Shown: positions 8,450 through 48,000 of the stretch, one piece after another | How the letters are laid out: every line of letters begins with the position of its first letter | Position numbering within the stretch: the first letter of the stretch is position 1 | Assembly (NCBI GenBank): GCA_950295325.1 | Contig: OX485803.1 | Location: forward strand, 51,227,554-51,291,553 | Reading direction: 5' to 3' | DNA: 64,000 nt | DNA from: Polytrichum commune | Lineage: Eukaryota; Streptophyta; Polytrichopsida; Polytrichales; Polytrichaceae | Made by a program: the position numbers and the translations under genes | The notes under the pieces: model-generated | Database searches by the model: none | Told to the model about the DNA's origin: nothing | What the model saw: only the letters and a program-made list of their open reading frames with translations

Positions 8450-10475
8450 TGTAACGTCCTTGTGGCCTGGCCTCCCATGCCAGTGGATTTATGAAGAAGA
8501 CAGCAGGCCCATTTCCTCCCCAAACCCGGAGATTCCCACGGATCGCCCATAATTTGTAGGCCATCTTATGCAATTTCCCGTCCTTGCAGGCTAGGGGTGG
8601 GTGCAGGCAGAGTAATAATCCCGTCATGTCACCAACGAAAGCCGCGTCTCCGGGGACCTGCACGGCGCCGAAATGATTCTTCGCTTCCCTTCCCTTCCCT
8701 TCGCATCCCATTGTGTGCGTGGTAGCCATCCATACATGGCTTTTTACCATGAAAGATGAAAGTGCCATTTCTATCATACTCGCTCGAGAGCTCGGTTCGG
8801 TGCCAATTAATGCATACGTTAGTAACCTATGCATTAGGAACACACGGGTATGACCGATTGATAGAAACGTGCATCATTTGAGGCGCACATCGACATAGAC
8901 ACCGGAACACCCTTCGTAGCATGACTCGATGTGCGTTCAAGGATCATGTTTCCATATCCAAATGGAGCACTTTGAGGGTTGTGTTAAAAGGCACCCTAGA
9001 TCCCTTTAGAGTCGGCTCTCAACTTGGCGAACGGCAGGCCTACTAGTTGATGGGAGGTCGGTGGGTGGAGGATTGTTGTCAGAGGCTACATAGCCCGAGG
9101 GTTGAATTCGACTTGGGTTGCAAACATGAGTTGTTTGCACATCAAGTCTTTAGTATTTAGTATTGAATATGAGTGGGGGAGGTCCGGGGGGTGCACTCTG
9201 TGTTTCTATATGTAATCACAAGGTAGCTTTTGTGACAACTTCTTGTGGTGGGTGCACATAAGGGGTATTATTTAGACATCTCTTGTATATTGTACACAAA
9301 TTTGGGGAGAGATATTCATTAGACTAAGGTTTGTATGTGTAGGAGCGCTATTTTATAAGGCGTAGAAAATTTACACTTGAATATGCTCAAGGATTTCATG
9401 TTGGTGTCCGTCACATTGCGTCACGTCCTATGATGGTGACGTTGAATCCAAAAACGTCACATTGGTTGGGGGGAGGGGGTAAGTCTGATAATCCACCCAA
9501 GGGTAAGTTAACACAACCAAACCCATAGTCAACAATCTTGTTGATTGCTACTTTGCAGTCGATATGATGGTCAACTGCAAAATAACAATCGACATAATAG
9601 TCAATTGCAAAATAATGTCAACATAGCAACTACTTGCAAAGGAAAAAAATATTAGGCATGGTGGTTGATTTGGACCATTACATCTTGTTGGCAGCAAGAA
9701 CTGGAAGTCCATATCTTTTTGAAATTCTTGGAATTTTTTTTTGGGTTTAGCAGTTGGCTAGCTAGTTGACTACCACTAGCAGTCGACTTTAAGGATAAAT
9801 AAATAATGATTAAAAAAATTTGGACCATTAGATCTTGCATCCAATAAGATGTGATGGTCCAAATTTTGTTTTATATATCATTTTTAATATCATTTTTTTT
9901 TGATAATTTTGAAATTGATTGCTAGTAGCAGCCGACCCCAAAAAAGTTTCATTTACTAAAAAAAATTCTATAGTATAAAAAATTTATCACATCACTAGGC
10001 GTCACATCCATATGATGTGACATAACATGATAGCCAAGGACCCTACCACATCCATTTGCACATGATGATCCCAGGCTATCCTCAACCTCTGTAGGAACAT
10101 GTTTATTGAGTGCATGAAAAAAAGAAAGATATGTAATACCTTAGCTCTACTTTGTGCACCTTATTTCTATTGTAAACATAAGTATTTACTTTTTGTTTAA
10201 GGTTTAGGGTCCATTTCTATTGTAAACCCTAATGTAAACCCACACTTTTGTAAATGTGATAGGGCACTTGAAACCTTGCATTGGTGTCTATTACAGATTT
10301 TAATTTAGGGAAACTCAACTTGTTTTTGTATCAAGTCTTGCTCAGCTTCTAGAAAGTAGCAAGAAGACTACAAGGGATGTTGGTCAAAGCAATCTTGCAC
10401 CGAGATCTCTTGCACCCCACCCTCCCATATTCAAAAGGTGAAATTAGGAGATTAAAGCAATGATTATGAGACCCT
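8450..10475. other. Intergenic, no gene seen
   Basis: Unassigned low-copy-looking sequence. Between 9530 and 9960 it is rich in variants of CAGTCGAC and TGCAAAATAA. A hairpin lies at 9819-9866, where AATTTGGACCATTA pairs with TGATGGTCCAAATT around a short loop; a third copy of the GGACCATTACATCTT phrase is at 9671. No open frame resembles a known family. Confidence 0.5.
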
Positions 10476-23439: not shown

Positions 23440-25430
23440 TCGTGCAATTACGGCTACACAAAGGAAGCTCAATACTCTCGAGCTGTGTCGTGTCCCCTAT
23501 GAATCAACAATAGGTCGGTATTTCCCTACCATCTCACTCACGAGTCAAACCCTTTGAGGTCCACGGAACCGAATCAAGGTATCCTTTATTAAAGATGATT
23601 TAAGGTTATACATATCTCAAATGTGTTATTTTTTTCAATTAGCTCCAGTCTGAATGTGGGGAATATCCGGGAATTCTACGTGGAATATTGTCAGTCCCAC
23701 ATAACATTGTTATGAAATTTTATAATGTTATGATACAAATACCTTATAATTTATCATCATCAAAGTGAAGGTTCTCTTTCTTCTTGATTAACCTAATAGC
23801 CCCTTCCCTCCCCCGGTAGTATTCTTAACAAACTTTACTTGGAATTTAGTAACATTCTTGCATTGGATTACAAATTTACAGGAGCGCCTTTTATTCACAT
23901 CACTTGAGTAACTATGCCATGACCCTGCAAGTGGTTAGTTCGTTCAGCGACCACGTCTAATTTACATCCTAACCCTAAACCCTATGTCAAATTTACGTGA
24001 ACATAGAACGTAAGATGACAAGACACACACATGATCTATGGCTGGGTAGAAACAACCCGTACACAGGTTCCTTGGAGGCAAGGCTACAATCATCCAACAA
24101 GGAAATAATGTATGGGTTGGTTCGCCCTCCCTATGCCCTACTACAAGTAATATCAGTATAATGATTATCCCGATTAGTGTGAGTTACTATTTGAAATCAC
24201 GCAATGCAATAACGACTTCTTCAGAAGTTCCATTTTAACTAACGAAAGTTCAATAGGTTAATTGAACATTATAGAACAGAAATGACTTCGCTTGCTGAAA
24301 TATTAGGTTCTCATCAAATAGCTCTAGCACAACATAACTCCAGATAGTAACACACACCAATTGGGATAATCAGTGTAGTAGAAACGCCGGCTCCTTGGAA
24401 ACAAACACGAATGAAGAGCTTCTTCACTTGCGAGCTACTACTACCGCCCCCTTTCGAGGGTGGGTTATATATGCATGGTAACCATATGCTCCAACAAAAA
24501 GTTACCTATCGGGGGTAAAAACGACAAAATATCTGCACGAGAAGGCCTCTCCGTACCTAGAACTTAAGTTTGTGGCGTGGTACGGGGGTCACACGATGCA
24601 CAATTCTTTGAGGGATCTTCCGGGAATCTATGTGAAGGCCCCGGTGTCGTGTAAGGAGGCCTCCCTCTTCCGCTTGTACCCGTTTCAATGGGCCTCCCGT
24701 CCCGCCCCCTCCCCTCCCCTCCCCTCCCCTCCCCTTCATTCATTGACCCCATTCAACGTTGTCCTTCGTGCACCCATCAATGTCCTTGGGGGAGAGAGTA
24801 CCTTATAGTATGCTTGGCTTAGTTAGCCAAGGTTGAAATAAGGCCCCCGTCCATTGACCACCCCCCCCCCCCCTCCCTTTGGCATTTTCTCGTCTTGCAA
24901 GTGCCATGTCAAGTGGTGGAATGAAATGTTTCGTCCTAGTGATTGGAAGGACGGAGGGGGAGGCTTAAAATTTGTTGACCGGTGTCAAGGGGATGCAAAC
25001 ACATAACATTATTCAGCTGAGTATGTACGCTAGGTAGGCCGGGAATAAGTGAGATCCTATTTAGAATTACACTTTGTTTACTCTCATAGTAGAGCACTAC
25101 ACTAGCTATTTCAAGTTGGAAAACTCGGGTGAAGTAGTGTACTATTATTATTATTATTCAAATGGAACAATTGATAACAACTGGATGAATGTTGTGTAGC
25201 TTGATCTGGATTTAAATTGTGTGTGTGATGATGTTTGGAAACGGGAGAAATTGAGGCCGTGCATCTTCGGGATCTCTCTCTCTCTCTCTCTCTCAAGATT
25301 GTCCTCATACACTTTGGGTCCGGGAATAAACATGCATAGTGGTGCCTTTAATCATGGGATTTATAGGTTTCAAGCTCCGTCAAGTTGAACATTGTAGCAG
25401 TCTTGAGGCCAAATTACCAACAATTGTGAC
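23440..25430. other. Intergenic, no gene seen
   Basis: Holds a partial family H repeat at about 23640-23740, a (CCCCT)n run at 24707-24735, a poly-C tract at 24860-24873, an ATT run at 25145-25159 and a (TC)n run at 25274-25294. Open frames overlapping the CCCCT run are low-complexity artefacts. Confidence 0.5.
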
Positions 25431-25552
25431 AACCAACCAATAAGTAAGGTAGAGGGTGCTAAAACCAACACCCCACCCAAAACCAACACCTATAAATGTC
25501 TCCCAATTGCCAACACTCTACTACCTTGAACCGTTCCCCATGGTCTAGGAGT

Positions 25553-25561
25553 GTCCAAGCC
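25553..25561. repeat. 9-bp target-site duplication of the MULE, left copy
   Basis: GTCCAAGCC, identical to 37527-37535. A perfect 9-bp duplication is characteristic of Mutator-superfamily insertion and suggests the element is not ancient. Confidence 0.95.
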
Positions 25562-25601
25562 GGCAGACAATATGGTACCCCCTACGAGCTTTTGTAGGGG
25601 G
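25562..25601 (+). repeat. MULE left terminal inverted repeat with hairpin
   Basis: Starts GGCAGACAATATGGTACC, then CCCCCTACGAGCTTTTGTAGG. CCCCCTAC and GTAGGGGG form a hairpin stem about 15 bp from the tip. A second palindrome-like block, CTGACAGGTCAG, follows at about 25605. Confidence 0.95.
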
Positions 25602-26210
25602 ACCCTGACAGGTCAGAAGCTGCCCGGCGCCCCTGCCCGTTCAGTGACGTCAGCCATTTACATCCAGTGTCTTTTCATCCATGCGATAGACGGAAAGACG
25701 GCAACACGATTGACATACAGATGGGCAGTTCATGTCATTCAGATGATGTCATTCCAGTCATGTCATTCCGGATCATGTCATTACTTCAGATCATGTCCTT
25801 CCGGGTTTTCCGGATCTGAGATCTGGATCATATGGAGCCAGTGTGCTCTTTCGTGTCTTTTTGGGTTACTACGTTGTGATGTCTATGATGTCTGTGATGT
25901 GCTATGTGGATTGATAGGGTGGTTTGTTAGAACCCACCACATTCACTTTCATTATGATGCTTGATCCTCTAACTCCTCATGCATGTTTAGCATTCTGATG
26001 CTTGCTGAACTTTCTGAATCACACCCAACTCTCAACCAGCATAAACATGTTGAGTTTAGGTTTTGCTCATACACACATAGAGTGGCAGCAATACAAGTGA
26101 TGCAGATATTCATGTCTACATAGTTTAGGGTTCAGCCTTTATCAGCAGGTTCATTTATCATCTGCACACCTCATCTGCACATATGATTTGTAAGTGATCA
26201 ACCTTCTCCA
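25602..26210. other. MULE left subterminal region and transposase 5' flank
   Basis: Non-coding. At 25730-25801 there is a cluster of ATGTCATTC-type words ending in ATGTCCTTCC, a motif that recurs through the element's introns and flanks. It probably contains the transposase promoter; I cannot name a TATA box with confidence. Confidence 0.5.
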
Positions 26211-29200
26211 ATGGCAAATGGAGGACTTGACTCATTATGGAATGTGGACAATGATCTGCACCAAACAGACCTTGTTGCAGATCAGGCCAAGCAGCTTGAC
26301 CTCATCATGGAGATGAGAGACCAAGTCCAAAACCCCCCTATTGGTGAATTTTGCTTCCAAGACTTGGTATGGACAAAGCATGTGACGCATGGGAAGGGGA
26401 AATACAAGACATCGATGTTGGCAGTCATTTTATGGGATAGGCTCCCTGATTTCATTCAAGGAGAGCAACACCACCCTCTCTATCCCTGCAAGTTCACCAA
26501 AGAAATCATTAGGGTTACTGCAGCCAATTCATTGAGGTCCCCTCGTGCAAATAGTGCAGCTATGGTTGTGAGGTTTGTCCTTTTCAAAATTGATTTGCTA
26601 TGATCATCCATGTCCTTCAGGGTTTTAGGGTGTCATTACTACACAGGAAGTAGGTCTTCCCAGCATTTAGGGTTCACATCTGTAAACACAGGTACTCAAT
26701 GCAGAATATCTATTTCTTTTCACAATGTCCTTCCCTATAATGCTTTGTTATTCTGAATTGATATTCAAATGTCACCCAAATTTCATTCAACACCATCTAT
26801 ACTACATACATGATTAACAATCACCTTCGATATGTAAGCAATTCATAATATGTCAATCATTCCACAATGTCCTTCCTTAGACTGTTTTGTGATTCTTAAT
26901 TGATTTTCAAATATCACCCAGATTTCATTGAACACCATCTATACTACAGATATGATTAATACTCACCCAGGATTGTACAAAGTATACACCACTCATGCAT
27001 TGCATCATCCTCTTCATGCGGCCTAGCAGGTACAGATGTAACTTTGGTCCTGAAGACAAGACAGGAATTGTCCCGCAGGACATGCAAATGCTGCTGAAAT
27101 ACACACAGACAAAAAGGAAGAAGAACATCCATACACAGAAGAAAAAACGAGGAAAGAAGGTTGTACCTGAGTATGATTCATTTCCTGTGAACAAAACATC
27201 TGTAGCAATGGTGAAGCGTATTGGGAAAACCATGGCTGGAAACTCCATCAAGCGAGGGTGTCAACGGGCCTTTGTGGCAAAACAGCCGTACCTCGATGGT
27301 GCTTTATGTGTGTTGATATATGAGAACACCGAACATTTGAATCTCCACGGAGAGCTCTGCCATGGCACAATGGTTAGTGGGACTAGGTATGCACTAGGCG
27401 CTGGACTTTCAGAAGAATTGAAGCAGAAAATAACTCAAATGCATGCGTTAGGACTTTCTCCTGCTCAGATCATGCAACAACACACAAAGGAAGTACGAGA
27501 GTTGGCCCTTTCTAATGGTGTTGTCACCCGCGATACATTCTTGTTGCCGGTTGATGTGAGAAACATTTGTCGAAAGCGAGCGGAGGAGCTTTGGGAGAAA
27601 CACCCGTCCGACCCTATAAGCATGCGAATGTGGGTTATGGAAAACCCTGAAAATGTGTTCTATTATCAAGAGCATTCCTTGTTGGACATTAATTCACAAG
27701 TGCAAAACGACTCCCCTTTCACTCTTGCTGTCCAATCTGGGTGGCAGTTGGAGATGATGGTGAAATTTGGACACAATAGTGCCTTCTCTATTGATTCTAC
27801 ATTTGGGACAAGCCAAACTAGGGTAAGCCATATCTCAGTGTCCTTTGAATTTTCATGTCATTCAGTGTTCTTCATGGTTCTTATACTTCCAATTCCGTGT
27901 CCTTCAAGGTTATTCATTCAGTGTTTTGTCTATTCAAAATTCGCAGTAGTCATTACAAACCTTCTAGTTTATATAATCCACACATTGTCGTATTCCAGTA
28001 TCCGCTGTACACAATCATGGTATTTGATGAGTGGAGAAATGGCATACCTGTGGCATTCTTTGTCATATCCCGCACTCGCGAACAAGATTTGCACCCTGTT
28101 CTTGAAGCACTTCAAAATAGAGTTCACACACTCAAGCGAGATTGGGCACCTTCTTTGATCGTTGTCGACAATGCCCAGGCAGAAATCAATACTTTGAGGT
28201 ATTCATGGTCTTGCCTCACTTTCTTTGATATTCATTGTCCCATATATGTCTTTCATGCACAATTATACGAACCTGCTGTTTTAAACTACTGTTGTTCTTG
28301 TACAACATCATATGGCCGGAGGCCAAAATATTTCTGTGTCTATGGCACGTCCGCAAGTCTTGGGCTGAGAATGCAGTGAAGAAGATTTCTGCAGTTGCTG
28401 AGAGGGCCACTGTTCTTCAGATGCTTGGAGACATAATGTATGGTAGGGGGTGCAAGGTTGATGAAGACCCAGTCGATTGGGCTGTCCGACAACTTGATAC
28501 AATAACGAACACCAGACCGCGGGCTGTAGCATTCATGAAGTACATGAATGACACTTGGAGATCCAAAACAACAATGTGGTGTGCTGCAGCACGACGCATT
28601 CCACATGCTGGCCAAAACACAAACGCTGCCATTGAATCATACCACTCCAATTTGAAAAATATTCTCAATTCTTCAAAGGAGAGGTTTGTGGGAAGGCGCA
28701 TGGATTGGCTAATCTATCACCTAATGGGAGATGTTCTTACACACTACTGGTATGGTGTGCAGTGCAAGGCGTTTGGATTCATACGCAACACAAAGCAAGA
28801 AGGTATTGTCGTAACAGCAATAATCAGGGCCAATGCCATACCTGATACAAACGTCCTCATTTGCCCGGATGAAGATGTTGCTTATGTTGGATCCATTAAC
28901 AACCGACCCAAAGTTTGGACCATTCATTCTCCGGACTCCGAGTGGGCCCAATGTGATTGTCCCATCGCAAAAGAGGGCATGATATGCAAACATACTGTGA
29001 AGGTCTTCAAAATGCTGCACCCGGATGTTGAGGATGGCGTCATTTTTCGTGAAGCAGGCACCAAACATGGCATTGACCGTGCAACTCCCTTGTCGCAGTG
29101 CTTCGCAAGGCCAACTCAGAAGCCAATTCCTCTCGACGCAGACCTACATGACAATATATTACATATTCGCGACGATGAAGGACACATCTCAGGTGGGCCT

Positions 29201-29578
29201 GCAGACCCGATTGTCATTGACTCTCACAATTCTAATGACATGATCACCAATATACCATTGGGAGAGGCCAAAAATCCAATCGACCTATCACAAGAGCGGC
29301 TATCACAGCCTGGGCCTAAAACCAAGGCGCATGACATATACATTGACTTGACGAGGACAGTCGACGAGTATCCAGCGCTCCAAGATTACTTACTTGCAGA
29401 CTTGAGGCATATACGAGGTAAGCAAACCCAGCTGATTGCGAGGGGGGTCGCCAAAATGGAATTCTCTCCCATGACGAGTTCTTTTCCTGAAAGGATGGGC
29501 GACAATTCTCTCAAACGGCATCAAAGTTTCTTGGAGATGTCGTCGCGAAGGCGTAAAAAATCAGTGCATATTACATAG
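26211..29578 (+). CDS. MULE transposase (DDE domain, SWIM zinc finger)
   Basis: This enzyme would cut and join the ends of the MULE. Exons are 26211-26572, 27030-27822, 27999-28198 and about 28303-29578, for roughly 876 residues. The first two introns have GT-AG ends and the phases agree. Catalytic residues by family comparison are Asp about 376 in FSIDSTFGT, Asp about 442 in IVVDNAQAEIN, and Glu about 563 in NTNAAIESYHSNLK. The LCLWHVRKSW block also fits MULE transposases. A SWIM zinc finger (CxC-x8-CxH, CDCPIAKEGMICKH) lies at about 669-682. The N-terminus (residues 1-120) has no domain I recognise; a lysine-rich stretch follows RYRCNFGPED. Oddity: after the donor at 28199 no AG dinucleotide occurs before 28320, so exon 4 lacks a canonical acceptor and its start at 28303 is inferred from frame and homology. 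A poly(A)-type AATAAA occurs at 29908. Confidence 0.9.
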
Positions 29579-30224
29579 TACTAATGTGCTTCTATTACTA
29601 GCCGTGTCTCTTGGTTGTCATGTTAGCGAAGTCGTTAATGATATCCATGTTTTTCACAGTGCTTATGTGTTCCTCGATGTCCAAAGCCGTGTACTACACC
29701 CTATACAGTGTCCTTCTGTGTTTCAAGGATCTTAATACACTATCCTTCAGTGTTCTGCAAGGCCTATTGATATGTCCTACACATTTCTGCAAGGACCTCT
29801 GATTTTACTTATATATGTGTGCACTTGTCTGCATTAACATGGTGCACATTGTCATATTACTGTCCTTCAGTGTTCTTCAGTGTCCTCAAGACATAAAAAC
29901 CGTATGTAATAAAATCCTCGCGCCTCACATTGGGTACATCCTATCCACATGTAGCCCAATGGTGTTCCTGCAGACTTAATGCAATGTCATTCAGTGTCCT
30001 TCCATACCTTGGGCATTGTCCTTCATGTTTGTTTTTGATATGAAAGCCCATACTACTTCATAATGTGAAATGCGTGTTGCTCTGATGGTCATTCATGTAT
30101 AATGGGCACTAGTGTGTGATAGAAAGCCAGTTCATTAAAATTGATGCACATAAATGCATATCGGTACAAACATACTTTGACATATGGAATGTCATCCTAA
30201 TAACTGCCTTCATATCTACAAGTG
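29579..30224. other. Convergent intergenic region inside the MULE
   Basis: The 3' flanks of both MULE genes meet here. There are repeated TGTCCTTCAGTG words at 29709, 29861, 29996 and 30018, and AATAAA at 29908. No further gene is seen. Confidence 0.6.
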
Positions 30225-33200
30225 CTAGAACTTCTTCTTCATTCTACAGCTTCGTCTACTCTGTTGTTTTCCACTCGTAGACGGGTCATCTTCTTGGGCC
30301 ATTACAACCTTCATGTTCCATGCAGTCTCCTCTCTAAAACCAGCCTGAATGACAGCCACCAGCGCTTCCGAAACGATGTTCCTTGTCTGTATTGCATAGC
30401 TTCTAGTGTAATTCAGCTTAAATTCCTGCATCAAAACCACCCCTCATCAATCTTGGCCGTGAAGAACATCAACTTAAAATTAAAATTGATGTCATTCAGT
30501 GTCATCTAAACACCTAATTGTGCAGTGTCATCACTAACCTCACCCAATGAACGTGGTCTATGTCTCAGAGCTTCGATAAACTCCATGATGTTCCTCAAGA
30601 CATAAAAACCACATGCCCAACCCGAGTTTTGCTTGGGAACAGATGGTTCTATCCATCTATGGACATGTGAAGACTGTGCCTGCACACTGCCACTCCTTAC
30701 GGTCCACATCTTGGCAAGCGATGTGCGAATAGTCACATCGGAGTGGAGACCACACCCTGGCATGGAGTCAATATGAAAAAAACCCCTATCCCCTAGCACA
30801 TATACACTCCAGTGCTTACCACATGTATAGGGCACTATCAGTGTTCTTACGTCCGAACCTGGAAGTGCGGTGTACTTGACATGCAAAAAGTCTATATAGA
30901 CCTCTACACTATCTTTCTTGTTACGGACATGCGATTTAAGCAGACTAACCAAATAAGGACTGCATACATAGGTTTTTACGTCCTCAATCTGTGGATTAAG
31001 CCATGCTCTTATCCAATCCAGCATATGGTTGGATAATTCTCCATATGTTTTTGTTAAGGGCAACACATCGCCCACCCAGCTTAAACTCAAATAGTCACCG
31101 CGGTACAAAAAGTCGAAACTGTTCACCATGGTCCCACCTGCTTCTGTGCAGATCGTATTCACAAGTTGTTCCAACCTGCATTACAGAAGTGAATGGATCA
31201 ACCCCTAAACATAAATGGCAGCGAATGACATAAGTGCACAACGAATGACAACAATGAAAACACTTACCGTCCATCAGGCTTGAGAGTTGTTGTTGCCAAT
31301 ACATCATCCAGAGACACGTCCAAAGCAGTTGGACGCACATTTGCGATGTCATGCGTTCCAACTTCATGTTGTACAGCCTCCAAAGCAACTTCAGTCTTGG
31401 TGGCTGCCCCCTCGTCACCCTTGGACTCTACACCATCTCTGTTGTTGTCGACTGGCAAAGCTCTCGAGAACCACGGACTTGGTCCTTCGGAAAGTGTCCT
31501 TGGCGAGCGTGGATTCTTGGAATGCATGTTGCAAAGACTCTCGTGCTGGGACAATTCAGGTGGCGGCAAAACAATCCTGTTTGGTGAGCATTGAGTACTG
31601 TTGAATTGAGACAAAGCCAAGTCCTGAGTGCTGATTCCTTCAAGTCCTTCAAGCGACCGTTGCGATGGCATAGGGATACTATCCAAACTTATGGCGGCTT
31701 GTACTTCAGCCACGAGTCCAAATCCACTTGAAGGTAATGCAGGTAGCTCGCCTATCAAGGACCGAACATAAGCTACATCTGGTGCAATGTCATCAGTCGG
31801 CTCCTCTAGACCCAACCCACAAAACAAAAGCTGCAGTTGCATCCTTCTCAAACTGATGAGTCCTTCTTGCTCCTCCTGAACGCGCAGCTCTAAGCACCTG
31901 CTCTTTTTGTAGAGGTCGCCAACTATAGCTGAACCAATATCTACATCTTCACGGAAAATGAACGAAGAACATAGAACCTGCATGACAAGGACTTACTATT
32001 AGGGCGCAGAACATGAATTTATAAGCATTGGTTGAAGGACGCGAATGACATAGTTGAAGGACATCCAAATCAGAGTTTAAGCTGAAGTTACTAACACCAA
32101 TTGCATAATATTACTTCAAAAAAACCAAGATCAAGCCATGGTTACAGAACTTAGTTGCAGAATAGAAAATATTGGCACTCAAATAGCATACATATTGCAA
32201 ATGACAAGAACCTACCTCTTCGCATTTTTCCCTTTCCTGCTCGGTTGTGTCGGCCTTGTACCACATTTGTGCAAGTTGCTCATCACGATGCATTCGCACC
32301 ATATCGGCAACTGACCTGTGTGCCATCCTCCCTACGAACGCTTCAATTTTCTCCACCACAGCGACTTGATTGGAATGGTCATAGCCAAGAAGAGCAACAG
32401 TGTCCGCATGTAGTTCGCTAAAAGTATCCACTGCACCATAGATACCAGGGAATGCAAGCCAGCCCGTATGCGGTAGACCCTGCACAATCATAGATAAAGC
32501 AACAGAGTAGTCCTTCCTACGCGCAATATCAAGTATATACTGCAAGTGCAATCCCTTGCTGGGATGAGCAAGTGGGCGTTTGTAGCCTTCAAGTGTCCTA
32601 ACCAAAGACAGTAAAGCTCTCAAGATATGAGGACACTCCGTCTCAAGGGACAACGGGTCAGATTTTGTATTCTCCAAGAGAACCGCAGACATCTCAACCC
32701 ATTCAACCTCTGTATGCTCCCAAGGAGCGGCAGGAAAATTTGGAAGCGGCCACTTCTTAAAAATCTGAAAAAGAGGGGACCAATGCCACTTCTCTGCCTC
32801 GCGTCGCTGTCTCTCAGCCATATCAAATTTCAATAGCTCGGCATCGACGTGCTTCTTGCGCAGTTCGTCCACGGTAAGAACAGCGGATGCAATTTGGCCC
32901 TCGTACGCTGTGTACGCAATGCGGTAATGCAAGTAGTCCTTAAGGTTTTTTAGTTCCTTGTACCTTTGGACATCGGAATTACACTTGAAACAACGGACCT
33001 GCGATTTGATGGTGTCCCGAAGAGCATTGTGTTCTTCAGCCGTGCGCGTAATCTGCCGAGAAGACATTAGCACCATATGTCAATGATAACAGCTAAAATG
33101 TACTTCAATGAAATATGAATTCACTTGAGTTCCAAGGCATGTTATGCATAAAGTCCACTCTGAAGTACATAAAAACAAATGAAGAACAGCGAATAAGGAG

Positions 33201-34720
33201 GTGAAGGACATACTGTTGAGTTGCCATAAAGGTACCATTGGCCAAAGGCATTTCCAATATGCTGGCCAATCGTACCGTCCTCCAATTGCGCATGCAAGTA
33301 TTGCATGCATGCATCAGGGTCCTTTAGAAGCTCCTTAGGTGCCCACTGATCATCTGTCTCTGCAATTAGGATGTATAATCCATTGTCCTCCACATGAGGT
33401 GGAGGACATGGAATTACATCGGCTGGACGAAAAAGGTGAGCGGCCTCGGCCCATGCCAAGCGTTCAATATCCTGCCTGGTAATCGGCGGTGCCCGAAGAA
33501 CTTCAACATCAGCAGAATGTCTTACAATCCTAAATTCGACATCGGATGAATCTGGAGCAGTGTCTGCAGTGGGGGAGAGTGACTCGCTAGGAGAACTCAC
33601 CCGGGGATGGTGTTCTTCAAATGACACTCGCGAGTTGCTACCGTTCTTACATTTCTTGGGTGCAGGGACTTCATGTTTGTCGAGTGGAAGGGCGGTGTGC
33701 GTACGTGGAGGCGGAGGACGTTGATCAACGGTCGGGGATGCAAGGTTGCGCTTCTTCGAAGGCCGCACCGGTTGGAGGCGCGATTTGTGTGGCGGTGAAG
33801 TCTCAGCTGCTGAAACTGCATCACCACACTCCGTTGAGGCTGCCTCTCCATCGAGGTTGAAAGGATGCGGCCGCCTGGATGGAGGTGGAGCGGTGGACAC
33901 CCGAGGTGAGCCGCGTTTTCCATATTTGGTACCAATCCTCTGTTTCTCGCCTTGTTCGCTCTTGTCCCAAGTCGGATACATCTTCAATGCCGTCGTGCCT
34001 TTGTACACGTTACAAAGCTTGAACATCCTGTGGTAAGAAGTAGTATTCTTATCTTTGTGAGACTCTTTACAATGGATGCAGGAGAATCTATACCTGTTGT
34101 TTGGCATCTTCTCCTTTGAACGGGCTGTCCAATAACATTCAAGTACGAGTTGCTCATACTCTTCCTCCAAATAAAGAGCGACGCATTGTTTCCGGTTATG
34201 CGTCATAGTGCTTCGGAAGATGCGCGACTTCCTATCCTCTCCACCACGCAGCTGCAAAAAACATGACTCCTGTCATTATTTGGAGCTGTAGGACATGGAA
34301 ATACACATGTATGCATTGCAGGACATGAAATTAACCCTAAACCCAAAAGCAGGACACCACTATTTGAAGGACATGGTTGGTAATCAAGAAGCAATTGAAG
34401 GACTTGGAAATCAACAGGAAAACATTGAAGGACATGAAATGAATCATCATCTTAAACCCTAAACAACTATACAATGAAGGACATGGGCCCTAAACCAAGA
34501 AACACTTCTATAACTGAATAACATGATTATAAACTTGAACACAATGCCTTACCTTGTCTTGCCACCCTGGAGTACCATTGATGCAGGTGTCCACAAAAGT
34601 GTCTCTTCCCAGCCACTTGATCATGTCATCGTCCTCCAAGGCATGAAAGCCTAAACCCAGCGCTTCAGGAACAAGTGTTGCAGTCGTCCATGAAACCTCA
34701 GCAACGCCTTTGGATGTCAT
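30225..34720 (-). CDS. Ulp1/C48-type SUMO-protease-domain protein carried by the MULE
   Basis: The C-terminal domain belongs to the Ulp1 family of cysteine peptidases that remove SUMO; the cellular target here is unknown. Six exons on the minus strand, 34720-34553, 34251-33214, 33052-32216, 31977-31268, 31175-30539 and 30425-30225, have GT-AG introns and consistent phases, giving about 1,196 residues. The catalytic set is intact: His about 1039 (GKHWSVYVL), Asp about 1054 (FFHIDSM), Gln about 1100 (VPKQNSGW) and Cys about 1106 (GWACGFYVL). The first 900 residues have no domain I can name. Exon 2 encodes a Cys/His-containing stretch (CIHCKESH...H...C), possibly metal-binding, then a basic proline/serine-rich linker; exon 3 is mostly helical-looking. 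Start chosen: MTSKGVAEV at 34720; an in-frame ATG at 34762 is an alternative. The gene converges on the transposase. ULP1-like genes are known passengers of plant MULEs. Confidence 0.9.
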
Positions 34721-34762
34721 ATTGCAAGGAATCTGCACCAAAACCGGAAGGCTGAAGGACAC

Positions 34763-37486
34763 AAGTCAGGGGACAGAAGTCAATACTTGAGAATGGCATC
34801 AGACTATGGACTGCAAGTCTTCTACAAGCACATGATCACAATCACCTAGTTCACAATCAGCACATTCAAAGGTACACAAAAGAAGAGTAATTGGAGCTTG
34901 CCTGTGTATTTGTAGCCTCTGGACTTTGAATGGTCTCAAGAGGCTGGAAGGTCGATGTAACAAGGAAAAGGAACGGCAAATCTATGATTGAGCGGTCACA
35001 ACACAGAGAATGCAGCTGGAGGAAGAGGAAGGAAGAAGAAGATCCAACAATTCGGTTCGGACAGTCTTGCCTATATATCTATTTCATATTCCACAAACCA
35101 TCTGCACAACCGTACACCACTATCTGCACATCAACAAACTTGCACTATTGTTTCACGGGTTTGGGATAACTCATGATGAACTTGAAAATCTTTCCTCAGT
35201 AGCCACCTGGCGATGACACTCTCACAAACTTGGCCACATGAAACAGGCGGACAATTCAATTCATGCTCTGGCAATGACACTTGTTCAAACTTAGCCACGG
35301 GAAGCTCCCAGACATTTCGAATCATACTTTAACCCCAACCGAAACAGACAATCAAACACATTAGCTCACACAACCCCTGAACATTTTTATTCTTCTCTCA
35401 AATACCTGGAACATGGAAGAATGATGATGATGATGATGATGTTCCAGACTCTCGCAGAAAGCATGTGCACAAGCTTCTAACTTCCGTGTTGAGTGTGCCC
35501 AACCCCCAAGACGCTCTGAAGTTACCTACAAAATTCTCTCAACCTACCTACCTACCTACACCCTTTTTACTCGTCTGATGGAACAATCCGTCAATCTGAT
35601 GGAGTCAGTCAGACCTGCAGAAGGCTTGGCATGAACAAACGTGTAACCCAGTGCATTAAATACCTCAACCAAAGTGTCTTTAGATTAAGCTACTACTCCC
35701 ACACATGGTAAAACGACAGAAGATTAAGCAGGGAAGACAGGGAAAGAGGTAGGTCTAGTGCATTCTCATGTTTCCAATGCAAATGCTCCAGTTCGTTTCA
35801 TTCCTCAAACTACGTGAGGTTGATAAATCAAGCAATTCAATCAATCTGACAGCACTCGAGCGAGGATTCCACTTGTGATCCTATGACATCTCGAAGACTC
35901 TCGAACGTCCCTTGACAATTCTCGTCGCCTGCCTACCTGCCTTCATTTGGGGTTGAGGGGCACGCACACAAACAAACAATCTCTCTATACATGATGCCCA
36001 CAGGAACTCCACTCACTAGACTCCCCACTCGGTGATCAAAGAGCTCTTAAAATCTTCCGATTCAGGGTTCATCAGCTCTCTTCGCTCTTCACTCACCTTT
36101 GTGCTCATTCACTTATCTAAAGTTCCTTCCTGCTATCAAATGATAAGTCCCTGCTCTGGAGCCTCCCTTGAGTAACATGTCTTCCTTGACACATTCAACT
36201 CACCCACCACCTCGGTTAGCTTCAAGCGGTGGCATTAAAATCTCTCCGGAACCTACCTGCCGCTGAACCTGATTCAAGCGGTGGGGATGCAAACCCACCG
36301 AATGGAACTGAAGCGGTTGGAAACCACGGATTCCCTAGGGTTACTGTAACTTTCGGCAACAACAGGCTGCAATTCAGGCAAAATCACATAATTTACAACC
36401 TCTCAACCAATCTCCAGCAACACCGGAATAATATTAAGCTCTTCATGCAAGTCTACCACTCTAGAAACATAGATTGCCACATGCTGCCAGAAAAGGAGTA
36501 CCCGCAGATGTTCCTCAAACATCCATATGCACGTCCTCTAATGAACTCTCCCATGGTTACTGCAACTTTCAGCTACAAGAGGGGGACTAACAGGCTGCAA
36601 TGGTGCTTACAATCCAATGGAAGACACCCAAACCAGAACTCAAGGAACTTGCGGCCATCACATAGAGGTTCACCTGACTCCACTGACTCCCTCCCTCGTC
36701 CTCTCGTGCGCCGCGTCAACCGAGAGAGTGCTTAGAAGCTGCGGCCGAATCCCTGCCTCCCAACACGAAAGCACCCAAACCCTGGAAAAAAAAAACAATA
36801 CAGATCTCAGGCAGGCCGCTCCTCTCCTCCCCCCTCGACTCTCCCTCTTCCCGCTGTCTCTCCGCCCTCCGAAGGAACACCCGGAAGCCGGACAAAGCCT
36901 CGAGCAAGTCTGTAGTAGGTCCCTGTCTCGGCAGAAACTCAAACAGCGAAACTCAAACAGCGAAACAGAGTAAAAGCAAATTAGGGTAAACGCACACAAA
37001 CACTCTCAACTGCCCAAAATGTGTAGGAAATCCAAGATGCGACTCCACATCACAGAGTATTAGCAAGACGATTGTGCACTGAAGCATCAAAGTTGTTTCA
37101 TTGAACCTGAACCGCATTCATTGAAGTCGAAATCCAAGCATAATCATACCCTAGCTGTTGATGTGTGACTGCTCAATGAAATCCTTCGCCGCGAAGTCCA
37201 ATCGCAATGACAACACCAAATCTGTCCTCATCGCCGTCATCACCACAAGGATCTGCACAATCATTTCGATTCGTGCAGTACACTCAAGAGAACAGACAAC
37301 CCTGAAAGACGTGACAGTACATGAGCTTGAGTGTACACCTGAAAAGACAACCCTCGAAGAACCTCCTGAACGAGGGTCGGAGCCCCAGGTTCTTCATCCA
37401 CGATCCACCTGCCGAACCGGTCACTTTACCGGTCGCGCCGGTTATCTCGGGCAGCTCCATCCGGGCTGACCCTGACATGTCAGGTA
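34763..37486. other. MULE right non-coding region
   Basis: About 2.7 kb upstream of the Ulp1-domain gene. It contains an ATG trinucleotide run at 35422-35442 and a GC-rich purine/pyrimidine-skewed block at about 36620-36960. Two related blocks of about 45 bp (36333-36378 and 36552-36603) each run from GGGTTACTGTAACTTTC-like to AACAGGCTGCAAT. The long plus-strand open frame at 36229-36735 has no recognisable domain. Its position suggests promoter and 5' UTR for the minus-strand gene, or a captured host fragment. Confidence 0.5.
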
Positions 37487-37526
37487 CCCCCTACAAAAGC
37501 TCGTAGGGGGTACCATATCGTCTGCC
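37487..37526 (-). repeat. MULE right terminal inverted repeat with hairpin
   Basis: The complement starts GGCAGACGATATGGTACC. On the plus strand, GGTACCCCCTAC and GTAGGGGGTACC form a perfect 12-bp hairpin stem around AAAAGCTC. Just inside lies the perfect palindrome CCTGACATGTCAGG. Confidence 0.95.
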
Positions 37527-37535
37527 GTCCAAGCC
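37527..37535. repeat. 9-bp target-site duplication of the MULE, right copy
   Basis: GTCCAAGCC, identical to 25553-25561. Confidence 0.95.
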
Positions 37536-38122
37536 CACGTAGTGATAATTTTAGGTGCCATTAGTGGCGCCAACTCATAACGGGCCTCCACTACCTTCAT
37601 GTAGGGTAGGTAATGGGCTCCACTTTATTTTGGTTGGTTCAAGGTGGGTTTAGGATGGCTTGTCAATGCCTATTTTAGCCATCCTATACACCGCCGGGGG
37701 AAGGAGAGGGGGGGGGGTGATGAATGCTTCTAGCCATACTATTCACAAAGCCAAGGAAGTAGGCCCATAAAAGCACAAAGGGAGTTGGTTCCTAGGATGC
37801 AAGGGGGACAGTACCCGGGAATCCGGGATGCAAGGTGACAGTCTTGCAAGCGAACAGGTGGGATCATGGAGGTGGCCATGTGGCTTTGCACACCGTTACT
37901 AGTTGGGCTTTGATCTAGCTTGGGTCTACTACTCAACTAGGTTGTGTTGGTATTAGGCAATGAAGATGGCATTCCTCATCGTATGCAAGGTTGCCATACA
38001 CATGACTTATGGACTGGTTTAAGGAAGCTAGTGGTTTTGACTTTGAATATTTGTCACATATCCAAATGAGGCTAAAAACATATTATCTTTCGTTATACCT
38101 ATGTTTAGCCCAAAGCTAATAT

Positions 38123-45083: not shown

Positions 45084-48000
45084 TCATCTCCTCAGCATAA
45101 AGGAACAATAAGATATGCAGCGGTCTAAAATTTTTTTATGCCCTAGTCGCCACTCTACTGCAAGCTTCCATCTTTCGAATCTAAGGTCTTCTGCAAGAGA
45201 TAAATTCCTTCCTTGGGATAATTTCCCTTTCAAAGAAACTGATTCCAGAAAATTTTCCAACTCATGTTTGATAATCTCTTGCACTTCAGAAGAAACCCCC
45301 TCCAATGCTTCTGAAGGGACTCTTGATGCTGATGTGATGTCCTTCTCTTTGTGCACACTCCAGAAGTTTCTCACCTCCTCTGTGGATTGATAGACTTTCA
45401 GAATCCCAAACAACAATTCATCCACATGTGAAGATGTCGGAAAACTCATCAGCATGTGGTCACATTTGGTTTTCAGCCATTGATAGACAACCAGGTCTGA
45501 TTCCGGAGAAATCTGTTGACCAGCAAAAGCTAAGTGTCGACGTGATTTTCTCAGTGTTGCAGGAGCAGCTGCCAGTCTCAAGTACAGCAACAAAGAAAAC
45601 GAAGGTTGTCCCTTGTAGTCAATGTAGACATTTTTGAGAGGGATCGTCTCTTGAGAAACCCAAGAATCACCTGGACTCAATTCATCTGTGCTAGGTAACC
45701 TCATGTGAACCTTGTCATTGGGATTGTAAGGTAAAAGAAAACCATAGTGCTCAAGAAGCTCAAGGTTTGTATAAGTTCCGTAGCATAGTAGGACCTGCAC
45801 AAAAACCATTCACATACAATATCACCTCTGCAACTAACAATATTGCATGCCAGCTCAAAGAGATGTTAAACAGCCTACAATAGCATCAGATATATTATGC
45901 AGCAATCTTATCTGGTCAGTCTAACCACTATGACTGTGATCTAGGTCACCATTTAATAGAACATAGAGATCCGAGACATCTGTACAAAGCACTTAAGATG
46001 TTCAATTAGCCAATTCAAACAAACCACTTGTACAATTGTAGCATTTGTGATGACAATTTCTTTTTTTTTTACCTGTTGTCCTCTCTTATAATCCTGACGC
46101 GCATAAAAGCAGTATTCATTCCTCTGAGGTTCAAATCCTCCATCTCGAAGCCGGTCTCGAAGTTCAAGGCCACCTGAAGTTTCTGAAGCATCCTCTGACA
46201 TCGCATCCACTTCTCTTTTGGATTCCCCATATGATACACCCGGACATGCATAATTGAAGTAGTCCCCAACAGGACATAAGGTGCCAGCCTCATCCCAGGG
46301 GATGAACAATGTTCGAGATGAAACCTGAAAGATTTACAGATGTTAGTTGTCAATAGTCAATTGTGCCTAATCCCCCAGACCCCATTCTTGATTTTTGTGT
46401 TGTCCAGGAGACCCTGACAGTTAGGGATGCACCATGGCAATTACGGAAGTTTCAAAGCATTTTGGCTATAGTTACTGAATTTCATGTAAAAGTTGAAGCA
46501 GTCAAGTTGATTTGTATGTCACACCTATCATTGTTAAGAGGACTTAAACAAGCTACATTGAAACGCTGATTTAGTATGGTTCACAATTTCCGTCATTCAC
46601 CCACATTCATGGTCTTGCAATAACTGGGTAGCCACTAGAGAGGGTGTCATATGACACTTAAGGTTACATGCCAAGTCGTGAAGACTGCTCTAATTAACAA
46701 AGGACACCAATTTTAATGCTACATCAGATATTTAGTGTAGTTTTCTCCCCTTCGGATCAAACAACAACTTGATTATTCTTTAAAACGTTCTAAAAGCAGC
46801 TGTCCCAAAGGGAGTCCCAGCTTTAGAGAGAATCTCTTCTATTAATAGTTGACATTTACTAAAGGCTTTACTCATAGGAACTTTTACATAACATTATTAA
46901 GCTCCATAAGAGGGGTCTGCAGGACAGGAAATCAAAAGCAATTTGATGCAATTACATAATGACATGTAAGAGAATGTTGTGCAATTTTAAGCCTTAATGT
47001 AAGGAGGTGTGAAGGCTTTCTATCTTTAGAAACACAATGGGGAGAGTACAAATAAGAGATTACAACTTCATAATGCTCGAAATTCATACATTTGTTGCAA
47101 TGAGGACCCTGATTCTTGGAAGGTTGTTCCTTCAGTCTGAATAGAAGGCCTAGACAAGGAGTTCACGAGGCTTAATAATGCTATCCGATCGACCATAAGA
47201 GGAGAATTCTGTTGTTTGAAGGTGCAAAGTCTAGAAAATCTATGAAACTGACTGTTAACTACTCCATACTAGCAGTATCAAAAGAATCAGCTGCAATATG
47301 TGGCATCCTTATCATGTTGATGATGACATATTCGGGAAGAGAATGTTGTCTGAAGATATTTGATGCCTTTGCCATATGGCTCAATGAATTTTTCTGATTG
47401 ACAATTGTTGGAGTAAAAACCTTCTTCCTTAATGTGCAAAAGTGGAAGTCAACATACACTTTGAAAATTCTCAGTGATGACCTTGTGTAGATTAGAAGTA
47501 TCAGCATTTACAGATGTTGTGAACTGTTCATATAAGAATGATAGAATCTGTCACCTAATGGACATGCCATTGCTGTACATCAAAGCAAAAGGAAGTTTCT
47601 GTCAAATTGAGGAGCGAAACACCTCATAATCCTGACATTCACCATAAAGTGAACAACATTTTGGGGTTAGGAGTACTCACGCACGGTGGCAGATGCCCAT
47701 AACCAGGCATGTAATGTAGTAAACCGTCGAGCTAACCTCAGCTTCTCCATTGACAACCGGGCACCCATCCATTCATCATGAGCTTTTTCAGCAGCCTGTT
47801 CTGCCATCCATACAGCTTCCTCCACCTATGTAGAGCAAAGAAAGCATTTTAGACGACCAGAATCATATAAACCATGGACTGTATGCATTCTATTGTTATC
47901 GATATTGTGTGACTACAAAGTTAAGTAAAATGATGCATACCTGAAGTGCTTGCGCTTCATGTGTAGTGTAGTAGGCTGCAGTATGGTAACTGCGTGGGAG

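Follow-up and report, generated by a model that had tools for sequence, protein, structure and literature searches.

Structure of the element and its two genes

The window, that is, the whole stretch of 64,000 nucleotides of Polytrichum commune DNA that was analysed (C1:51227554-51291553), carries a MULE of 11,965 bp at 25562-37526. The element is flanked by a 9-bp target site duplication (TSD), GTCCAAGCC, with its left copy at 25553-25561 and its right copy at 37527-37535, and it is bounded by terminal inverted repeats (TIRs) of 66 bp at 25562-25627 on the plus strand and at 37461-37526 on the minus strand. The two TIRs match at 39 of 40 positions over their first part, as the sequence-only reading of this DNA had reported, and at 58 of 66 positions over the longer span. 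Each TIR holds an 8-bp inverted pair, CCCCCTAC and GTAGGGGG, around an 8-nt spacer, which in the left TIR is GAGCTTTT (25574-25601 and 37483-37510), and it is possible that this pair is a dyad to which the transposase binds. Between the TIRs there are two convergent spliced genes, here called T and U, whose exons are open throughout. A MULE is marked by a DDE transposase domain (PF10551), by TIRs, here of 66 bp, and by a TSD within about 8-11 bp, and all three were found. The element is a real and recent two-gene TIR-MULE, a member of a large clade of such elements, and the complete MULE of about 12 kb with two spliced genes that the earlier reading had described was recovered with both of its ends. 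A scan of 25400-37700 against Rfam returned nothing at gathering scores and a tRNA search found none. Elsewhere in the window, the frame at 449-1030 presumably belongs to a NAC-domain protein and the frame at 45084-45809 to what we take to be a SET-domain-related protein, judged by resemblance.

T lies on the plus strand and its four exons code for 875 amino acids. Exon 1 is at 26211-26572, exon 2 at 27030-27822 contains the first catalytic Asp (SIDSTFG), exon 3 at 27999-28198 is part of the Pfam MULE domain, and exon 4 at 28306-29578 contains the catalytic Glu and a SWIM-like CxC...CxH. In Pfam, T matched PF10551 with 58.7 bits (cutoff 27.6, E 8.5e-16) and PF21056 with 37.8 bits, and neither a SWIM match nor a DNA-binding domain was reported for it. 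The catalytic Glu is present in all 14 aligned rows and the first Asp in nine out of ten, the exception being family F1 with Asn. We infer from its domain, the TIRs, and the TSD that T cuts and pastes the element.

U lies on the minus strand and its five exons code for 1140 amino acids. Exon 1 (34553-34720) includes the start codon, exon 2 (33214-34251) codes for a conserved N-terminal part in which C-x2-C-x12-H-x5-C is a candidate zinc finger, exon 3 (32216-33052) is conserved and has no Pfam match, exon 4 is at 31268-31977, and exon 5 (30506-31175) holds the Ulp1 (Peptidase_C48) catalytic domain with its H-D-Q-C residues. The Peptidase_C48 score is 23.4 bits for the exon frame (cutoff 20.7) and 19.0, which is under the cutoff, for the whole of U; outside this region U has no family match in Pfam, and DUF1985 and DUF287 gave no match in the whole of U (E up to 1) or in exons 2, 3, and 4 (E up to 5). 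When a profile made from nine U domains was searched against PDB it found the Ulp1-like SUMO protease 6dg4 (E 9.4e-6), SENP8 (E 4.5e-5), and SENP7 (E 0.002). All 14 aligned rows have the catalytic H, D, and Q, and 13 have the Cys, which is Tyr in family F2; the candidate zinc finger of exon 2 is conserved in every aligned row but that of the decayed copy C4a (9 of 10). Structure predictions of exons 2 and 3 made without an alignment (pLDDT 41 and 38) were too poor for use. A cluster of Peptidase_C48 sequences at C5:50.1-50.5 Mb, absent among the U-search matches listed, perhaps consists of host ULP genes or of another lineage of transposable elements.

Genomic copies and age of the insertion

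The sequence-only reading had staked the element on its ends recurring elsewhere in the genome, and they do recur. In the 407.8 Mb (64 contigs) that were searched the left TIR has 35 matches, and pairing these by strand and spacing gave 12 pairs that are 10.7-23.1 kb apart, one pair with a spacing of 67 kb, and nine unpaired ends. The survey of TSDs covered the window copy and ten further copies, which are all of the 12 pairs except the 23-kb one at C5:4557653-4580711. The TSD is perfect in seven of these 11 copies, being 9 bp long in six and 10 bp in one, and in the others it matches at 8 of 9 positions (two copies), 7 of 9 (one), and 5 of 9 (one). The closest full-length copies are at C2:8724660-8736653 (99.4%) and C6:12929322-12941339 (99.2%).

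An interspersed repeat about 290 bp long surrounds the element. Its flanking parts are at 25353-25561 and 37536-37735, and a first look at the genome gave 1,174 candidates for it, of which 40 were scored. When the two flanks were joined, 38 of the 41 matches listed spanned the insertion point at 83-91% identity, as read from alignment extents and not base by base, and these 38 are copies of the repeat without the element; the other three are the window's own two flanks and one short piece. Of the ten further copies, one (C6a) is located in a relative of this repeat. The nearest core divergence is that between the window copy and C6a, 0.31%, which at a rate of 1.3e-8 per site per year, taken from rice (PMC4858842), gives a rough date of about 0.12 Myr. 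The perfect TSDs, the empty copies of the repeat, and this low divergence uphold the claim of a recent insertion with relatives that have both ends.

The transposase of the window copy

The earlier reading also described the element as complete, with intact catalytic residues. For these residues this is right: T has the first Asp of its DDE set and the Glu, and U has the H-D-Q-C of the Ulp1 domain. The copy as a whole, however, is not intact, because intron 3 of T (28199-28305, 107 nt) ends in AA and not in AG. The acceptor at 28304-28305 is AG in all seven other close copies. The length of this intron is not divisible by three, there is no other AG inside it, and its retention leads to a stop after residue 511. 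The splice sites were compared in eight close copies including that of the window, with C5b, C3b, and C5c excluded as diverged. T and U are both open across the annotated exons in three of the eight, the window copy, C6a, and C3a, and the latter two have AG or GT at every splice site listed; C2a has a frameshift in U, and in C2b, C7a, C2c, and C4a both genes are interrupted by stops or shifts.

Since the acceptor has been lost, the window copy probably does not produce a normal transposase, and it is structurally complete but probably not self-sufficient. That it is instead fully intact and currently autonomous, which would be compatible with any of the explanations of U considered below, we regard as improbable. 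Its open exons, full TIRs, TSD, and small distance from the nearest copy would agree with it, and an in-frame AG at 28403-28404 could serve as acceptor, with exon 4 then losing its first 33 residues; against this, the loss is unique to the window copy and the eight AGs ahead of 28404 in exon 4 are all out of frame. Of the suggestion that the element is still mobile or mobilisable, the first half is thus weakened while the second stands: with both of its TIRs the window copy could be moved by relatives that are open in T and U.

Pairing of T and U and selection on U

A convergent U was found beside T in 51 out of 51 cases, these being the best 51 of the 100 transposase matches listed, which were compared with the U matches. 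The distance from T to U in them is 482-3,237 bp, a measure that on the minus strand also takes in the length of the U match, and the 51 include loci that are almost the same as others in the set. A search with exon 2 showed that the N-terminal part of U is also present at many of the T-U loci.

In five between-family pairs with dS up to about 1.1, the dN/dS values for exon 5 of U are 0.168, 0.192, 0.230, 0.134, and 0.223, and those for exon 4 of T in the same pairs are 0.120, 0.095, 0.249, 0.144, and 0.173, one of these with a dS of 1.5. Pairs with saturated dS were excluded from this set; where dS was above 2, two further comparisons of exon 5 of U yielded 0.15 and 0.18. Stop codons are present in several of the family loci compared. 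Comparison with the decayed copy C4a gave U values of 0.39, 0.86, and 0.70 (exons 2, 3, and 5), and against C6a there were too few changes for a reading, exon 3 giving 1.1. The distance matrices of T and U are correlated with r 0.97 over 12 loci and with r 0.89 over the nine loci outside a distant clade, and in neither case did any of 5,000 permutations reach this. In the distant clade (L024, L030, and L031) T is about 40% and U about 24% identical, and the convergent T-U arrangement and the catalytic residues are kept; two pairs inside it gave dN/dS of 0.37 and 0.20. The high dN/dS of T in this clade (0.62 and 0.88) was set aside because the rows had been aligned via the window protein, and by direct comparison the three loci are 92-97% identical to one another over the whole stretch. 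These results show that U is a co-inherited protein under selection of about the same strength as that on the transposase.

Oriented motif arrays

The noncoding DNA of the element is rich in one short motif, about which, as about the host DNA described in the next section, the earlier reading was silent. The noncoding DNA of the core (3,161 nt) has 15 copies of GAAGGACA (TGTCCTTC) and the coding DNA (6,051 nt) has one, and relative to the nearer gene all 15 noncoding copies are in the sense orientation and none is antisense. First-order simulations gave a mean of 0.08 for this motif, and the top count for any 8-mer in 300 simulations was six; the remaining 52,027 nt of the window contain it twice. 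Most copies lie in introns and in the gene flanks at mid-element, and their orientation inverts between the two halves of the element. Neither the mosaic segment of the window copy nor its final 2.7 kb, beside the right TIR, contains the exact motif. Close to the left TIR, at 25733-25801 on the plus strand (element nt 172-240), there is a subterminal array of five TGTC(A/C)TT(C/A) units. The simulations preserve dinucleotides and leave tandem duplication unmodelled, though it made some of the copies, since a 134-bp duplication (82%) in intron 1 of T carries them.

The degenerate form TGTYCTKC, which was picked after the 8-mer counts were known, was counted in other loci, where tblastn masks, in place of gene models, set the limits of noncoding DNA. 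The sense to antisense counts are 23:0 in the window copy, 11:1 in C3b, 14:2 in C5c, 10:2 in F1, 7:3 in F2, 12:5 in F3, 5:0 in F4, and 6:0 in F5, and in all eight of these nearly whole main-clade loci the sense count exceeds every one of 200 simulations (maxima 3-4). In partial stretches the counts are 2:1 for L026 and 0:0, 0:0, and 1:0 for the distant clade, in which no motif array was seen in the parts read. The top 8-mer varies with the family, being GTTCTGCA in F2 (14), TTTCAGAG in F4 (9), and TGAATGAC in F1 (11 sense and 9 antisense). The motif changes gradually between families, and its orientation is weaker in F2 and F3, with 5 of 17 antisense in the latter. The sense bias could mean that the motif is a signal at the RNA level.

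A mosaic of host DNA upstream of U

Host fragments contribute to a mosaic that occupies the 2.2 kb from the start of U to the right end. Divergence among the copies starts beyond element nt 9212, and the variable segment (34774-36997) begins about 53 bp upstream of the start codon of U and has a right edge that depends on the copy, at 36686, 36938, or 36998 in window numbering. In the window copy it includes, all on the plus strand, a 60-bp piece at 34903-34962 (98% to C2:58551357-58551416), an 86-bp piece at 34961-35046 (98% to C5:37753582-37753667), captured DNA at 35045-36323 in two blocks from C5:12091382-12093026 (92% and 98%), and captured DNA at 36337-36656 (98% to C1:16069958-16070277); a further stretch is 83% identical to C2:38794467. 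This segment is shared with C2a (99.8%) and C6a (99.4%). Other copies have other contents: C4a has pieces of four C5 loci and of C1 and C6, C2b has pieces of C7:30.99 Mb and C6:35.78 Mb, and C3a has pieces of C1:16.067 Mb and C1:23.79 Mb together with a common repeat. The core of C3a differs from that of the window at only 51 of 9,265 sites (99.4% identical), yet its segment is mostly other sequence, part of which matches C2b at 97.7%. C2c differs from the window copy at 12 of 559 sites at the right end versus 294 of 9,275 in the core. Because the likeness of C3a and C2c in the segment and at the right end departs from their likeness in the core, it appears that copies have also exchanged parts.

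Where pieces meet, 10 of 19 junctions overlap by 2-7 bp and the others have gaps of 2-93 bp, as taken from BLAST extents with no estimate of chance. Template switching during gap repair has been offered as an explanation for Pack-TIRs (PMC8277862), and here it would be break repair with template switching that fills the segment from the start of U to the right TIR, with host fragments being replaced more quickly than the core changes. For the conserved blocks of 62 bp that precede U, an origin as exons that had lost their introns was considered and was rejected when the junctions were read; the blocks look like the outcome of insertions, deletions, and replacements. The turnover of host fragments beside the start of U in near-identical copies offers a short-time view of how MULEs capture host DNA.

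Proposed role of U

Based on the resemblance of the arrays to those targeted by VANC proteins, we tentatively propose, with confidence that stops somewhat short of even, that U is a motif-directed SUMO protease that counters the silencing of its own element. The conserved N-terminal part with its candidate zinc finger, joined to the Ulp1-type SUMO protease domain, would recognise the one-way arrays of the TGTCCTTC type that its own family carries in introns, in UTRs, and in the left subterminal DNA, and would bind to them. There U would strip SUMO from chromatin or from silencing proteins and so allow both T and U to be expressed.

Two other explanations are unlikely in our view and still deserve weight. 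One is that the arrays are by-products of tandem duplication with no binding role and that U acts elsewhere, for example, by stabilising the transposase or by damping a SUMO-dependent response of the host. The motif-bearing duplication in intron 1 of T agrees with this, as does the finding that MULEs and CACTAs carry Ulp1 sequences in various arrangements (PMC2528002); however, a related motif core is found in families whose T is about 65% identical, in separate introns and flanks, and mostly in the sense orientation. The other, to which we give slightly less credit, is that U corresponds to mudrB by position and acts as a cofactor of transposition and that the arrays are binding sites for the transposase or the cofactor. 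It would suit the convergent arrangement and co-divergence of T and U, the inversion of motif orientation between the halves of the element, and the array adjoining the left TIR, but most exact motifs are in introns and mid-element flanks, away from the right TIR. Lastly, it is hardly credible that the Ulp1 region is a passenger, that is, a functionless transduplicated host fragment, as Ulp1 sequences in transposable elements have been described (PMC2528002, PMC13317346), because the invariable pairing with T among the best matches, the kept catalytic residues, and dN/dS of 0.13-0.23 contradict it.

The element bears on the question of why plant transposons carry SUMO-protease genes, in that a U that is under selection here adjoins a candidate DNA target.

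Comparison with known systems

Maize MuDR also has two convergent genes between TIRs and a 9-bp TSD, and its second gene is mudrB. The window element differs from it in having an Ulp1 protein as the second gene product and in its TIR of 66 bp, which is much shorter. The sequence-only reading had named Kaonashi and CUMULE as known MULEs that bear ULP1. Kaonashi is described as a non-TIR MULE (PMC2528002, PMC13317346), and of the marks of Kaonashi and KI-MULEs the window element has the Ulp1 gene in reverse orientation to the transposase but not the lack of TIRs. We rejected an assignment to Kaonashi because the TIRs are present and U has no match to DUF1985.

The VANC protein of Arabidopsis VANDAL21, VANC21, binds YAGTATTAY motifs that form single-orientation arrays in the introns and in the intergenic and terminal noncoding DNA of the element, and a related VANC acts on other transposable elements (PMC5735166). 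The regions affected by VANC6 carry different motifs (PMC10398659), and VANCs that bear Ulp1 (KIU, Kaonashi) are reviewed as behaving similarly (PMC13317346). Like these systems, the window element has a second protein, with an Ulp1 domain as in KIU, and dense, short, one-way motifs in noncoding DNA that differ between families (PMC5735166, PMC10398659, PMC13317346). Unlike it, VANDALs have TIRs that are absent or degenerate (PMC6446971) and carry VANA, VANB, and VANC, whereas the window element has 66-bp TIRs and two genes, and its U lacks the DUF1985 or DUF287 that marks the VANC family. The likeness to VANC systems is one of working and not of membership. It is possible, though we hold it as doubtful, that this is a TIR-MULE lineage outside the VANDALs with its own means of anti-silencing, a zinc-finger SUMO protease without DUF1985 that is steered by arrays and that diverges together with its motif.

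Pack-MULEs and Pack-TIRs share with the window element the chimeric host fragments between TIRs, and junction overlaps are known in animal Pack-TIRs (PMC8277862); Pack-MULEs, however, are without a transposase (PMC4858842), whereas the window element has both genes of its own. Among the closest known systems are the ULP-bearing TIR-MULEs of grapevine and melon, which have TIRs and an Ulp1 sequence downstream of the transposase, with the opposite orientation among their layouts (PMC2528002). That account, as far as it was consulted, mentions no long conserved N-terminus of U, motif arrays, or mosaic, and it reports transduplicated fragments of other kinds in class II elements (PMC2528002); the literature searched, which was covered in part, likewise yielded no description of motif arrays in an ULP-bearing TIR-MULE. 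Judged by these descriptions, the window element appears to be a previously unreported form of the known ULP-bearing MULEs.
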